From a virus: a stretch of 26,267 bases of DNA. The position numbers and the translations under genes were made by a program. Positions 1,045 through 8,178 of this stretch are shown piece by piece. The DNA is taken from positions 1-26,267 of the IMG/VR virus record IMGVR_UViG_3300037358_000207; one strand, given 5' to 3'. The notes under the pieces were generated by a model. The model was not told where the DNA came from and did not search any database. It saw nothing but the letters and a program-made list of their open reading frames with translations. How positions within the stretch are numbered: the stretch's first letter is position 1; the number at the start of each line of letters is the position of its first letter.

Positions 1045-2295
1045 TTATGACCAGAGGGTGGTTTCCGCGCGGTCGATGCAGTAGGCTTTGAGCACGTAAT
1101 GCCAGTCGGGCGCTTTGCGCTCGCGGGCGGCGAGATCGACGGCCAGGTCGAGGATGCTGATCCAGATGCCGAGGCCCTCGCCGGCGACGACGGCGCTTTG
1201 GAGTTCGAGGGGGCTGCGGATAAATTGCTCGGTGGTTGGCTGGCCCTGGTCGTTCACGGCGTCGTAGCTGACGCCGATCTTCTTCGCCGGCGCGGCCGGG
1301 AGGCCGCGGGCCTTGGCAAAGAGGGCGAGATCGTCGTCGGGCAGGACGTTCGGGAGCTGGATCGGCGCGGTCCGGCGGCGCCAGAGCTGCTCGAGCCGTT
1401 TGCGCTCGGGACCTCTTACCAGCAGGTCCCGGCCCTCGTTGGTCATGAAGATGCCGACGCCGATGCGGCGATCATCAAAGAGCGACTGGATGAAATCGTA
1501 CAGCCGGTGGTTGCCGGCGCGCCGGAGCGCCCGGTGAAAATTGTCGAAGATGAGCAGCTTGCCCTCGCGGAAGCACGAGGCGATGGCGTCGCCGAGATCG
1601 CTGGGGCGGCTGACGCCGGAGAGCGCGAGCGACATCCCCAGGCGTTTCTTGACCTGGGCCAGCGAGGGCGTGTCGGGCATGTCGATGGCGATGGTCTCGC
1701 CGTGGTTGTGCCGGCGCGTGTACTCGGCGATGGACTCGCTCTTGCCGATCTGGCTGTCGCCGAAGATGAAGGCGATCTTGCGGTATTGCCGGGCGCGATC
1801 GAGCCGGTCGAAGATGGCGCGGCTCATCCGGGTATCGACGAACCCCGAGGATTCGAGCCGGCTGGCGGGCTCGACGGCGGTCTGGAATGCCTGGATCGCC
1901 TCGACGACCGGGATGATGTTGGCGCCCTGCTCGACACGGCGGCCGGTGAGGACCTGGTACAGCGTGTCGTAGCTGTAGAACTTGCCGTCGCCGGATGATC
2001 CGGATGCACCTTTCGAGAGCAGGCTGCCCATCTCCTCGCGGCCCAGGTTCTTGTGCCGGCAATAGCCGCCGAACCATTCGAGGGCCTTGGCCTGGTCATC
2101 GTCGATGATGCCGCGGTCGATGGCTTCCTTGACGGCAACGGAGATGACGTTGGCCGGGATCCGGAACCGGATCGCGCGCATGGCCTCGACGGCCTCGGAT
2201 TTGATGGGGCTATCAACAGGGACCCTTCGGGTCTCGAATGCGTCGGGCAGCCGGTCGAGCGGCTCGTCTTCGGTGAGGGCGTCTGGGGTCTTCAT
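1045..2295 (-). CDS. MuB-like AAA ATPase, transposition target protein
   Basis: A 416-aa P-loop ATPase directly downstream of the transposase, as in Mu-like phages. The Walker A motif is GDSQIGKS at residues 179-186. Walker B is KLLIFDNFHRA with Asp251. The N-terminal 120 residues contain a helical, DNA-binding-like region (GYCRHKNLGREEMGSLL, SYDTLYQVLTGRR). In Mu, the B protein binds target DNA, activates the transposase and gives target immunity. The same role is inferred here from fold, size and gene order. The start overlaps the transposase stop (ATGA, 2292-2295), implying translational coupling, and no separate ribosome site is seen. Confidence 0.88.
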   Translation of the reverse strand: MKTPDALTEDEPLDRLPDAFETRRVPVDSPIKSEAVEAMRAIRFRIPANVISVAVKEAIDRGIIDDDQAKALEWFGGYCRHKNLGREEMGSLLSKGASGSSGDGKFYSYDTLYQVLTGRRVEQGANIIPVVEAIQAFQTAVEPASRLESSGFVDTRMSRAIFDRLDRARQYRKIAFIFGDSQIGKSESIAEYTRRHNHGETIAIDMPDTPSLAQVKKRLGMSLALSGVSRPSDLGDAIASCFREGKLLIFDNFHRALRRAGNHRLYDFIQSLFDDRRIGVGIFMTNEGRDLLVRGPERKRLEQLWRRRTAPIQLPNVLPDDDLALFAKARGLPAAPAKKIGVSYDAVNDQGQPTTEQFIRSPLELQSAVVAGEGLGIWISILDLAVDLAARERKAPDWHYVLKAYCIDRAETTLWS

Positions 2296-4328
2296 ATGTG
2301 GCGGATTTCGATTTCCTCCTCGGTGGACGGGGTGGACACGATGGACGGGGTGGACTGGCGGATCGCAGCGCCTACGGCTGCCGCTTCATCGCCATCCGGG
2401 TCCTGGGATTCTCCGAGGGCATCGGCATTCGAAGACGCGCGCCGCGCCATTTCGCGGGCCTCCGCAAGGTGGCGGGCGCGGACCGGCGCGAGCAGCTCGC
2501 CCTCGCGCTTTGCAGCGGCTCCGCAGGCCCGCTGCACGGCCTCGACATCGGCCCTGCACGGCGCGTTGATCCGCCGGCATTGGCCGATGTAGCCGCCGCG
2601 GGCGTTGCAGACGAAGAGGGTGTCGGGCGCGAAGGGATTGACGAACGCCTGATAGGTTTCCCCGTCGCGCAAGGCCACCGGATGCCCATCGGCGTCGGTG
2701 GCCATCCCGGAGTAGCGATGCATGCCGGGGCCGACTTCGGCGTCCTGGAACTCGAACTGGTTCTTGACCACCTTGCGCTCGACGGCCAGGTCCGGCCCGA
2801 GGATGTCGCACACGCCCCAGGCGGGGAATTTGATGAGATCGGCCGCGCCCATGTCCCACACCTCGCGCCGGCTCATCTTGCGGGGGCGTGTGAGGATTTC
2901 GCCTGATTCGATCAGCATGTGGACGACCTGCCGCTGGGCGTCGGTCATGGACAGGAGCGCGCCGCGGTCCACCCAATGCTTTCCGATCAGCATCTCATTG
3001 ACCACGTGCCCGCAGTCGATCCAGTCGGAGAGTTCGTGGTCGGTGTACTGCTCGATGTTGGTGTACAGCTCGCCGGCGATGTGCATGAACTCGTTGAGTT
3101 CCAGGAGGTCGAACTCGAGCTTCGCGGCGGTGGCCGGGCGGAGCTGCTCGCGGGCCCAGAGGAGCATCTGGTTGTGCTTGAGCTGCGCCTCGAGGCCCTC
3201 GGGCCGGTGCGCGAGGTCCATGCCGGTCTGCGCCGGCAGATGGGCAAATTCGTTGTGGGTCAGGTTGTTGCTCGATTCCAGCGACGCCTTGTGCCGGAAG
3301 TTGCCCCGGCTGAGGCCGGGGTATTGGCCGGCGTGGGCCGCGGCGCCTTTCATGCCGGAGTCGGAAACGGTGATGAGTGGGCTGCCCGCGGCATCGCGCT
3401 CGCAATGCTGGGCCAGCGCTTCGCGGACGCGGTCGTTGAAGGCGGCGGTGCCGTGCTCGACCACCATGATCGTGCCGCGCGGGCTGTAGCCGTCCAGGAA
3501 GAGCGTGGCGGCCAGCACGTAGCGGGTCATGCGCTCTTCGAGCCCGGACATGCTCCCGTCCGCCTTGCGGGTCCGGACCCGGACGCCCCAGCGGATTTTG
3601 CGGGCGCTGAAGAGGTCGTGCGAGAAAAGCTCGAGCGGGCGGCCGGCCTGTTTCTCCGCGAATGTGTTGACGAAGAAATCGTGCCACATGTCGTCGAACA
3701 TGATGTGGCTTCCGACCCAGAGGCCCTTGCGCGTGGTGTACACCAGCGGGCGCTCCGCATCCGCGGCGGTGCGGCCGATGCGGGCCGCGGTCAGCTCGTA
3801 CCGGGTGGGGGCGTGCTTGACCAGGTTGCGGTAGCTGCACCCAATGGGGTAATCGACCACGGGATCGACCTCGGGCCACGGCAGGTGGGGGAGTTTGCCG
3901 GCGCGCCAGTCGCGGATCATCCGGCGCCAGGCGGACCGGTTCTTGCGCTGGTCGCTTTCGCAATAACCGCGGAAGCACTCGATAATCTCAGGGGGAACGC
4001 CCTTGCATTCCTGGGGCGCGACGGAGCGGTTGATGAAGACGCGCCAGTCGCCGGCGTCGAACCAGGTCCGCTTTCCATGGCCCTTCTTGTTGGGCGCGCC
4101 CTTGTAACCGCCCTGGCGGTAGATGTCGTACAGCCGGCGTGCCGTGGCGTCGCTCACGTCCATGTCCCTGGCCACGCGGCGCAGCGCGTCGCCGATCTTG
4201 CACCGGCAGCCCTGGGGCGGATTGAACACGGGCGTCAGGATCCGCAGCCAGCGCCGGACATTGTTCCGGACTTCGAGCGGGAGCCCAGCGTACTCGGCGG
4301 CGTCGGAAGTCGGGATGGCGAGGGTCAC
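2292..4328 (-). CDS. MuA-like DDE transposase
   Basis: A 678-aa protein with Mu transposase layout: N-terminal helix-turn-helix-like region (about 40-75, with DVSDATARRLYDIYRQGG), a catalytic RNase H-like core (about 200-400) and a beta-rich Mu-C-like domain (about 520-580, AFVNPFAPDTLFVCN). Candidate catalytic residues are D212 or D213 (MFDDMWHD), E291 in VVEHGTAAF where a second Asp is expected, and E351 (ASLESSNN). It would carry out strand transfer during integration and replicative transposition. The start is a GTG at 4328 with an AAAGGAAG ribosome site and a GTGA overlap with the upstream gene. The C-terminal tail (STPSIVSTPSTEEE) is encoded by a GTGGAC direct repeat (2323-2355). Confidence 0.9.
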   Translation of the reverse strand: MTLAIPTSDAAEYAGLPLEVRNNVRRWLRILTPVFNPPQGCRCKIGDALRRVARDMDVSDATARRLYDIYRQGGYKGAPNKKGHGKRTWFDAGDWRVFINRSVAPQECKGVPPEIIECFRGYCESDQRKNRSAWRRMIRDWRAGKLPHLPWPEVDPVVDYPIGCSYRNLVKHAPTRYELTAARIGRTAADAERPLVYTTRKGLWVGSHIMFDDMWHDFFVNTFAEKQAGRPLELFSHDLFSARKIRWGVRVRTRKADGSMSGLEERMTRYVLAATLFLDGYSPRGTIMVVEHGTAAFNDRVREALAQHCERDAAGSPLITVSDSGMKGAAAHAGQYPGLSRGNFRHKASLESSNNLTHNEFAHLPAQTGMDLAHRPEGLEAQLKHNQMLLWAREQLRPATAAKLEFDLLELNEFMHIAGELYTNIEQYTDHELSDWIDCGHVVNEMLIGKHWVDRGALLSMTDAQRQVVHMLIESGEILTRPRKMSRREVWDMGAADLIKFPAWGVCDILGPDLAVERKVVKNQFEFQDAEVGPGMHRYSGMATDADGHPVALRDGETYQAFVNPFAPDTLFVCNARGGYIGQCRRINAPCRADVEAVQRACGAAAKREGELLAPVRARHLAEAREMARRASSNADALGESQDPDGDEAAAVGAAIRQSTPSIVSTPSTEEEIEIRHI

Positions 4329-5083
4329 TTCGTGACTTCCTTTCTCGGCTTCGCCTCGAGCGGCAATAGGCCCTTCCTCATCTCGATGAGGAGGCCGTCC
4401 AGCTCGCGCCGCTTCGCGCCGGGGAGATGCGTCCAGAGCGGGGCCTCGCCCTGGGCGCTGTGCCAGTCAGCGGAAATCTTGAGCAGCGGCTCGTAGAGCA
4501 GGGTCGAGGCGATCTCCGCATTGTCCTCGGGGTCGCCGGCTTTCTTGTGCGCGCCGGTGTCGCCGCCTTTGAGCTTCTTCTTTTCCTTGAATCCATCCAG
4601 CCAGGAGCGCTGGCTGGTGCCGTCGATGAACGCGAAGAGGTCCTGCTGGAGCTTGCGCTCCTTGTCGCTCAGCTTCTCGGGCTCGGCGGTGGCCAGGGCG
4701 GCGAAGCCGAGAGACTTGCGAATTTTGGCCGGGAGCGCGAATTGGTCCTGGACGGACTTCGCGATGTCCTTGAACCGGTAGGCTGTGGCCCGATTGACCT
4801 CGGGGGCGTTCCGTTCGAGCCATCCCTTGACGCCGTCGCCCTTGATGCCGTTGCCGGTCACACGGTGTCCACGTGCGGACAAGGTGTTTTCCGCGCGATT
4901 CTCGAGCATCTGTTCGAGCAGCAGCATCATGGCTCCGAACCGCAGCACCTCGCGCATGCCGCCGGTGGCGCGATGGTATTGCTCGGTGAGCTGGGCGCCC
5001 ATCAGGGCGTCATCGGTGACAACACTCTGTCCACGCGTGGACAGAGTGTCGGGAGGCTGGGCGAGTACGATCTCTTTGCTCAT
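4325..5083 (-). CDS. DUF3102-like early phage protein with in-frame palindromic inserts
   Basis: A 252-aa protein that starts at 5083 with an AGGAGA ribosome site about 8 bases upstream. The segment GWLERNAPEVNRATAYRF followed by KDIA resembles the DUF3102 pattern (G.WL..N.P.v..rTA.Ry...A) seen beside MuA/MuB genes. The function is unknown, possibly DNA binding. Residues around 11-21 (PPDTLSTRGQSV) are encoded by a perfect 28-bp palindrome, and a related peptide (ENTLSARGHRV) by a degenerate copy. The first 50 residues are duplicated in the small ORF immediately upstream, which lacks the palindrome. Start and stop overlap neighbours by 4 bases. Confidence 0.75.
   Translation of the reverse strand: MSKEIVLAQPPDTLSTRGQSVVTDDALMGAQLTEQYHRATGGMREVLRFGAMMLLLEQMLENRAENTLSARGHRVTGNGIKGDGVKGWLERNAPEVNRATAYRFKDIAKSVQDQFALPAKIRKSLGFAALATAEPEKLSDKERKLQQDLFAFIDGTSQRSWLDGFKEKKKLKGGDTGAHKKAGDPEDNAEIASTLLYEPLLKISADWHSAQGEAPLWTHLPGAKRRELDGLLIEMRKGLLPLEAKPRKEVTK
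4860..4887. repeat. Degenerate 28-bp coding palindrome
   Basis: The arms ACACGGTGTCCACG and TGCGGACAAGGTGT pair at 10 of 14 positions. It has the same length and lies in the same reading frame as the perfect palindrome at 5022-5049. It encodes NTLSARGHRV against DTLSTRGQSV of the other copy. Read as an older, decaying copy of the same element. Confidence 0.55.
4930..5014. repeat. 85-bp tandem duplication, copy A
   Basis: By eye this 85-base segment matches 5121-5205 at 76 of 85 positions with no gap. It encodes the conserved DDALMGAQLTEQY...GMREVLR stretch of the DUF3102-like protein. The copies are in direct orientation, separated by about 106 bases, consistent with local duplication of the gene's 5' end. 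Confidence 0.85.
5022..5049. repeat. Perfect 28-bp palindrome inside a coding region
   Basis: Left arm ACACTCTGTCCACG is followed directly by its exact reverse complement CGTGGACAGAGTGT. It lies in frame within the DUF3102-like gene and encodes the core of DTLSTRGQSV. The duplicated 5' fragment at 5080-5232 reads straight through this site without it, with a net difference of 33 bases (11 codons). The centre contains GTCCACGCGTGGAC. Confidence 0.9.
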
Positions 5084-5232
5084 TTCGGTTCGTCTCCTGA
5101 AGGCCGGATTTTCAGGATCGTGGCGCCGAGGCGGAGGACCTCGCGCATGCCGGCGGTGGCGCGGCGGTATTGCTCGGTGAGCTGGGCGCCCATGAGGGCG
5201 TCATCATCGGGAGGTACGGTTTCTTTGTTCAT
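5080..5232 (-). CDS. 50-aa partial paralogue of the DUF3102-like protein
   Basis: An ORF of 50 codons starts MNKETVPPDDDALMGAQLTE. It overlaps the methyltransferase stop by ATGA (5229-5232) and the next gene's start by ATGA (5080-5083). Its residues 9-37 match the N-terminus of the 252-aa protein downstream (DDALMGAQLTEQY.RAT.GMREVLR.GA), then it diverges into KIRPSGDEPK and stops. It is therefore a truncated tandem duplicate. It may be a decayed remnant, or may be kept because its end provides the AGGAGA ribosome site and translational coupling for the full-length gene. No independent function can be assigned. Confidence 0.7.
   Translation of the reverse strand: MNKETVPPDDDALMGAQLTEQYRRATAGMREVLRLGATILKIRPSGDEPK
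5121..5205. repeat. 85-bp tandem duplication, copy B
   Basis: Partner of the repeat at 4930-5014 (about 89% identical by eye). It lies inside the 50-aa partial paralogue and lacks the palindromic insert found beside copy A. Confidence 0.85.
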
Positions 5233-5843
5233 TTTTTGGGGCTGCGAAAGGGACGTTGGAAGAGCAGGCCGTCGATGCCGGACTCGGCCAGGGCGGCCGC
5301 GTTATTGCTGCCATAGGCGACGAGGACCGACATGAACGCCGGGCGGCCGGCGCAGACCGTTCCATCGAGGTGATGGAACTTGATGCGCCCCTTGAAGAAG
5401 AGGATCGCGTCACAGGCCGCCACGGCCTCGTGGAACCAGGCGGCATCGGTGCGGGAATGCAGGAGCACGATGGCGTTGCCGTGCGCCGCGGCTTTGCGGA
5501 CCCAGCGCGGGCCTTCGGCGCCATACGGAGGGTTGAGCCACACGCGGGTCGAGCCCTTTGGGCTGCGTAAATCCCAGTCCTGGGAGAGCCCGTCGTCAAT
5601 GACAGTGAAATGCAGCTTGGCCGTGGGCCAGGGGCGATTGATGGGGGCGCAGGGATCGAGGTCGAACTCGCCCAGGGCGGCGATCAGCTCCGGCGGCGTG
5701 AGCCAGTCGTCCTTTGTGCCCGGCGTCCGAACATCGCCTCCGCGCGACTTCTCCCCGAACGATGGGCGGGCCATCGGGCGGCTCAAGGCCTTCAGGGCGG
5801 CATCGACGACCCGGTGACCGGGGGCATTATCGGCTTTGCTCAT
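5229..5843 (-). CDS. Phage DNA adenine-N6 methyltransferase (Dam family)
   Basis: A 204-aa protein of the phage N-6-adenine methyltransferase type. Diagnostic features are DDWLTPPELIAALGEFDLDP (45-64, with the DP.CA-like DPCAP just after) and the catalytic NPPY at residues 104-107 in VWLNPPYGAEGPRWV. A later GRIKF (152-156) fits the family core. It would transfer a methyl group from S-adenosylmethionine to adenine N6, probably modifying phage DNA against host restriction, a role Mu fulfils with Mom. The recognition site cannot be read from sequence. The first 40 residues are a basic, flexible extension. Its start overlaps the upstream stop by ATGA, and no clear Shine-Dalgarno is seen. Confidence 0.87.
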   Translation of the reverse strand: MSKADNAPGHRVVDAALKALSRPMARPSFGEKSRGGDVRTPGTKDDWLTPPELIAALGEFDLDPCAPINRPWPTAKLHFTVIDDGLSQDWDLRSPKGSTRVWLNPPYGAEGPRWVRKAAAHGNAIVLLHSRTDAAWFHEAVAACDAILFFKGRIKFHHLDGTVCAGRPAFMSVLVAYGSNNAAALAESGIDGLLFQRPFRSPKK

Positions 5844-8133: not shown

Positions 8134-8178
8134 GCAAGAATGAATATGCAATTCTGAATAGGGGCGCAAGGGGATTTT
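8117..8178. promoter_or_regulatory. Divergent control region between Ner-like and repressor genes
   Basis: The 45 bases between the two regulators are the only AT-rich gap nearby. They hold repeated GAATGAATA and TTCTGAATA words and an AGAAT...ATTCT inverted repeat (about 8137-8155). A perfect GTAAC-C-GTTAC palindrome (8117-8127) overlaps the first Ner codons. These are candidate operators for the two regulators. I could not fix convincing -35/-10 boxes on either strand. Confidence 0.55.

Follow-up and report, generated by a model that had tools for sequence, protein, structure and literature searches.

A palindrome read in frame in a transposition operon

Does a perfect palindrome that is read in frame within a phage early gene record the insertion of a small mobile element, or does it belong to the gene in which it lies? 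The question is raised by a 28-bp palindrome at positions 5022-5049 of an IMG/VR viral sequence of 26,267 nucleotides (the window), identified as a Mu-like phage by its genes for a Mu-type portal, terminase, TniB, transposase and Dam methyltransferase. The palindrome lies within a minus-strand gene of an orphan family (4325-5083; 252 aa, with an HTH-like W-L-x-A-P-x-V-x-x-A-T-A-Y-R-F segment), which we call the palindrome gene. Directly downstream on the same strand follows the Mu-type transposase gene (2292-4328), whose start overlaps the end of the palindrome gene, and the same operon contains a gene for a TniB/MuB-like AAA ATPase (1045-2295, minus) and, upstream of the palindrome gene, one for a Dam-type N6-adenine methyltransferase (5229-5843, minus). 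A truncated tandem duplicate of the 5' end of the palindrome gene (5080-5232, minus; 50 aa) is free of the palindrome and stops just before the linker described below. The same type of transposase and TniB adjoin all near relatives of the palindrome gene and several distant ones. Where host contigs of homologues are named or grouped, they belong mostly to Verrucomicrobiota; the MAG of the sister phage L031 is titled Betaproteobacteria, and its genome is grouped in the same class as the Spartobacteria MAG G002. A literature search retrieved no paper on transposable phages of Verrucomicrobia.

The initial annotation described the palindrome as perfect and in frame, and both statements hold: it reads ACACTCTGTCCACGCGTGGACAGAGTGT and encodes DTLSTRGQSV. 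A perfect palindrome of this length has a chance expectation of about 1e-4 in the window (26267/4^14). It was the sole inverted repeat scoring at least 9.4 in the window, five shuffles combined gave one, and its score was not reached in 60 synonymous-codon shuffles of the gene. The net gain of 33 nt (11 codons) over the truncated duplicate, whose reading frame (MNKETVPPDDDALMG...) is without the palindrome, is also as claimed. Among the homologues compared, this in-frame palindromic gain in the N-terminal tail is common only to the window and L031, the transposases of which are 99% identical. The truncated duplicate is missing from L031, where the left edge of the N-terminal palindrome marks the join.

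The label "DUF3102-like" given to the gene had to be dropped: not one of 28 family members matched DUF3102 (PF11300) and none reached any Pfam cut-off, the only weak DUF3102 match (E 0.014) coming from an analogous gene of L018. The window's own gene matched nothing in Pfam or PHROG, a protein search of viral contigs and phage records with this gene as sole query returned no match, and DUF3102 appeared in the literature search only in papers on unrelated subjects. An AlphaFold2 model computed with 15 homologues predicts a helical protein (mean pLDDT 73.6) in which the N-terminal palindrome encodes residues 12-21 of a disordered tail. Relatives of the gene were also seen in 74 of 346 genomes in the class of G030, often with at least seven candidates per genome, mostly with short linkers and palindrome-free.

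The linker as the resident site

A second, related palindrome, overlooked in the initial annotation, lies in the same gene at 4860-4887. This central copy (ACACGGTGTCCACGTGCGGACAAGGTGT; an imperfect 28 bp encoding NTLSARGHRV) is 79% identical to the N-terminal one when the two are compared by eye, with two mismatches in a 16-bp core, and shuffles yield 0.13 such matches per window. It was recognised by core match and position, being too imperfect for the gap-free inverted-repeat test (p=0.41), and it may be decaying, since it carries two adjacent mismatched pairs and one G.T. In the AlphaFold2 model it encodes residues 66-75, which span the end of the helix 43-70 and the beginning of a loop modelled at low confidence. 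Its position is the site of a palindrome that is conserved, with covarying arms, across the family. An IMG/VR scan for TGTCCACRYGTGGACA returned 14 contigs, and in L004 and L008 the match falls inside a homologue of the gene (tblastn 6e-40 and 5e-23, respectively), at the place of the window's central copy.

We collected the linkers of 45 homologues, nearly all through peptide patterns that do not touch the palindrome, the linker being the stretch between the end of the FGAMM helix and the W-L...A-P...T-A-Y segment. An inverted repeat significant against dinucleotide shuffles (p<0.05) was present in 27 of them, as exemplified by AATTTGTCCACGCGTGGACAAATT (L020), GAGTAGTGTCCACGTGTGGACACTACTC (L008), GATCACCTTTTCCACGATGGAAAAGGTGATC (L019), GATCAAAGTCCAACGTGGACTTTGATC (L022), ACACCTTGTCCAATGTGGACAAGGTGT (L131), ACTGTTCTCACGCGTGAGAACAGT (L041) and CGGGCAGTCTCACGCGTGAGACTGCCCG (L049); L032 carries tandem copies. 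The palindromes, about 14-40 bp long across all instances, form stems of 10-14 bp with loops of 3-4 nt and tolerate 1x1 mismatches and one bulge. Palindromy is conserved among phages whose proteins are only 25-45% identical, and the trait clusters on a tree from which the linker was left out (6 changes versus 12.6 in shuffles). The linker of this gene makes up about 1% of the bases in 221 kb of related loci, and it held 12 of the 27 strong inverted repeats there. The palindrome is not essential to the whole family, because several short-linker relatives are without it.

The N-terminal copy has a narrow distribution. A search with the full 28-mer found no further copy, its 26-bp core occurs elsewhere only in L031, and an exact 18-mer scan of IMG/VR gave no other match. 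A 24-bp relative with matching arms lies in the central linker of the distant phage L149. The best reading of these sequence comparisons is that the N-terminal copy is an additional copy of the resident element, confined to the lineage of the window and L031.

Several observations concern palindromes at other places or of other types. A second palindrome, GCCCGCGCCGNNCGGCGCGGGC, lies in the same linker of L067, L068 and L071 (genomes G030, G066 and G240), where it encodes ARPAPVGAG-like peptides; it is found in 1-3 copies per genome, some within the same prophage. The upstream part of L054 (G094) holds an array of TTTTTCCAATGATTGGAAAAA-type palindromes adjoining a gene of the wider family. In L017, whose transposase is 49% identical to that of the window, the palindrome GTTAATTCACAAGTATAGTTGTGAATTAAC (5166-5195) sits in the gene preceding the transposase, the homology of this gene to the palindrome gene being weak and uncertain. 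L016, a phage that has a terminase and a small HTH gene in common with the window, carries GTGTCCACATGTGGACAC at three intergenic places within 170 bp (3950-4116), in one case with a mismatch.

The two arms change together while the peptide does not persist

Covariation of the arms was quantified in an alignment restricted to 24 even-spaced palindromes with a 12-pair structure. In this set 86% of the cells were paired and two-sided changes numbered 90 as compared to 30 in shuffled data, counts that are not independent events because the sequences are related by descent. The covariation score was 0.728 versus 0.217 +/- 0.026 after shuffling (reached in 0 of 500 shuffles), and it fell to at most 0.151 in slid controls in which the partner was moved by 1-3 columns. 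Across 30 palindromes, the Watson-Crick fraction of pairs 5-11 was 0.81 for arms of the same phage and did not exceed 0.51 once arms were swapped among phages (0/5000). The five centre-proximal pairs are the least variable (TCCA/TGGA, with a centre that is mostly CGCG), while the outer pairs vary freely yet jointly, and one-sided changes are rare in the arms.

The encoded peptide shows no such constancy. One 13-mer, GTCCAACGTGGAC, occurs in both L022 and L027 but in different frames, encoding SNVD in the former and VQRG in the latter, and the homologous palindromes of L143 and L146, two genes in the genome G739, are likewise read in different frames (NSTRGV versus SPRADS). The spacer is 3 or 4 nt long, so its parity varies, and the reading frame too changes while the palindrome persists. 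The peptide LSTRGQ was accordingly rejected as the target of selection, as frames and peptides change among phages. Conserved palindromy, joint changes of the arms and the turnover of sequence, parity and frame together argue that the palindrome is maintained as nucleic acid and not for the sake of the peptide it encodes.

Residence in one gene and dispersal in one phage

The initial annotation likened the palindrome to the in-frame palindromic elements of Rickettsia. The main rival to the reading proposed below is a small mobile or selfish phage palindrome, similar in style to the Rickettsia and Wolbachia elements, that would insert in frame where the protein tolerates it, with the linker as a hotspot. 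In host genomes of 2-6 Mb, each tested core occurred once, or twice where the gene has two palindrome copies. TGTCCACNNGTGGACA was found solely in the palindrome gene, twice in G001 and once in G002; TCTCACGCGTGAGA once each in G030, G223 and G263, always in the palindrome gene; and AGTCCGCGCGCGGACT exactly once in G066, with a one-mismatch copy in G240, in both cases in the palindrome gene. Since the cores are confined to this gene, a dispersed host repeat is rejected.

L019 is the exception. Its phage record holds three dispersed copies of GATCCANNNTGGATC (type AAACTGATCCA-NNN-TGGATCAGTTT; 983-1007, 1179-1199 and the 7704 region), of which a single one is intergenic and the other two are read in frame, in a small ORF with a signal-like start and in the C-terminus of the transposase. 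The L019 copies, which lie in an intergenic gap, in a small secreted-protein ORF and in the transposase gene, count in favour of mobility, as do the presence or absence of the palindrome among homologues, the extra N-terminal copy in the window and L031, the tandem copies in L032, the placement of the encoded peptides in disordered segments and the resemblance of the window's N-terminal copy to the central copy of the distant phage L149. Against it, the core is restricted to the palindrome gene in most phages and in all host genomes tested, the L019 core is missing from 388 genomes of the phylum, and neither a target-site duplication nor an associated enzyme was found. Covarying arms at one orthologous place further point to long residence. 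Copies in many genes were not found, and the palindrome is an old resident of a single linker of this gene family. Given the dispersed in-frame copies of L019, we regard a mobile or selfish element as a possible but rather unlikely account.

The comparison with Rickettsia palindromic elements stands in part. Those elements are 105-146 bp long and, within one genome, are spread over many genes as well as intergenic sites (PMC2229807). As in the Rickettsia and Wolbachia elements (RPE and WPE), palindromic DNA lies within coding sequence and is read through in frame in a tolerant protein segment. The likeness ends with length and dispersion: the window element measures about 28 bp and the instances here about 14-40 bp as compared to about 100-150 bp for RPEs. 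A phage normally carries one or two, their place is one orthologous gene and their arms covary; L019 excepted, the core (in G066 the exact core) is found only in the palindrome gene in G001, G002, G030, G223, G263 and G066. REPs, which are extragenic and of high copy number in the chromosome (PMC3733652), resemble the palindromes described here, as do REPINs and other extragenic palindromes, in being palindromes of 20-40 bp, but the present ones are intragenic, phage-borne and present in 1-2 copies.

Template switching and transcript folding

Matched arms could also be preserved in a tolerated palindrome without function if hairpin-templated template switching copied one arm onto the other, the palindrome serving in addition as a breakpoint of recombination or duplication. 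In favour of such a process, L143 and L146 share about 96-97% identity ahead of the linker palindrome and about 70% after it, the truncated duplicate of the window stops just before the linker, and paired changes are dense among sister phages. What it leaves unexplained is why the linker of one gene keeps a palindrome in many diverged phages and others do not, and we consider this reading improbable. This change from about 96-97% to about 70% identity forms a sharp mosaic boundary at the palindrome in the two prophage genes of G739 (14795 region of L147 and 1297 region of L148).

A hairpin in the coding sequence of the mRNA, controlling translation or decay of the transposition operon transcript, would agree with stems of 10-14 bp, loops of 3-4 nt and free parity, with a variable stem that covaries, and with the tolerance of 1x1 mismatches and a bulge. 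On the coding strand, G.U pairs (8-9) are not in excess of A.C pairs (11-12) and one-sided intermediates are few; an mRNA hairpin is therefore not favoured over a DNA dyad or cruciform. There was no Rfam match, and no terminator tail save a weak match on the antisense strand. We hold control through the folded transcript to be improbable. A known RNA family and an intrinsic terminator were rejected as well, the first for want of any Rfam family that matched and the second after a search that gave nothing convincing. An ordinary repressor operator is not supported, because the divergent regulatory regions of the window (near 8140) and of L019 hold no copy of the site, the only copies in the window at up to 4 mismatches being the two intragenic ones.

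Discussion

A palindrome kept at a fixed spot while its letters change suggests an unrecognised DNA control or recognition site. In our proposal, an early gene of Mu-like phages of Verrucomicrobiota harbours the palindrome as a cis-acting DNA element. Its home would be the linker that joins the long second helix to the HTH-like segment, with the transposase and TniB genes following just downstream. There it could act as a dyad or cruciform site bound by a phage-encoded DNA-binding protein that co-evolves with it. The simplest candidate for such a binder would be the gene's own HTH-like product, and the transposase would be another by analogy with the Mu enhancer. The putative role of the site would be to regulate expression of the transposition operon or to aid transposition or transpososome assembly, and the N-terminal copy at 5022-5049 would have been gained as an extra copy in the lineage of the window and L031. 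We give this account, in which a co-evolving phage protein recognises a gene-resident dyad or cruciform site within the transposition operon, about an even chance of being right, both binding and function being inferred. Several points count against it: the gene product has no significant structural match in Foldseek searches of PDB and BFVD, a spacer of variable parity (3 or 4 nt) is unusual for a dimer site, the divergent regulatory regions of the window and L019 hold no copy, several short-linker relatives are without the palindrome, and hairpin-templated mutation could keep the arms matched without selection.

A narrower form of the proposal, which we advance tentatively and hold to be doubtful, is that the palindrome represents a new class of protein-coding cis element, serving as a specificity site placed in frame in the gene of its own binding protein beside the transposase. 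It would diversify rapidly as its arms change in concert and its frame shifts, with the result that specificity differs between related phages and even between two in one genome.

The Mu enhancer lies in an AT-rich intergenic operator region, outside coding sequence, and it is not a single perfect palindrome, whereas the palindrome described here lies inside coding sequence. The two are alike in that each would act in cis as a DNA site close to the early region and the transposase genes of a Mu-like phage, the position next to the transposase gene being the feature observed here; in Mu, the enhancer (internal activating sequence) is recognised by the transposase (PMC5977238), and binding is envisaged here by analogy. 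Stoperators of cluster A mycobacteriophages are 13-bp asymmetric sites, present in more than 20 copies per genome in short intergenic gaps (PMC9283540). Like them, the linker palindromes are short and phage-specific, and they could diversify along with immunity specificity or block transcription within operons; unlike them, they are dyad-symmetric, coding and present in 1-2 copies per genome, and they are absent from the divergent promoter region.

What looks like a palindromic insertion can be a second copy of a resident site, a point relevant to the origin of palindromic insertions of the Rickettsia type. Genic sequence is usually read as protein alone; in this gene, across many phages, the palindromic character of a coding stretch is conserved despite changing letters, peptide and frame. 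The case is natural and directly testable as an example of nucleic-acid-level selection within a gene, and the site is a candidate for recognition in transposition control among Mu-like phages of Verrucomicrobiota, a group that is large and unstudied.
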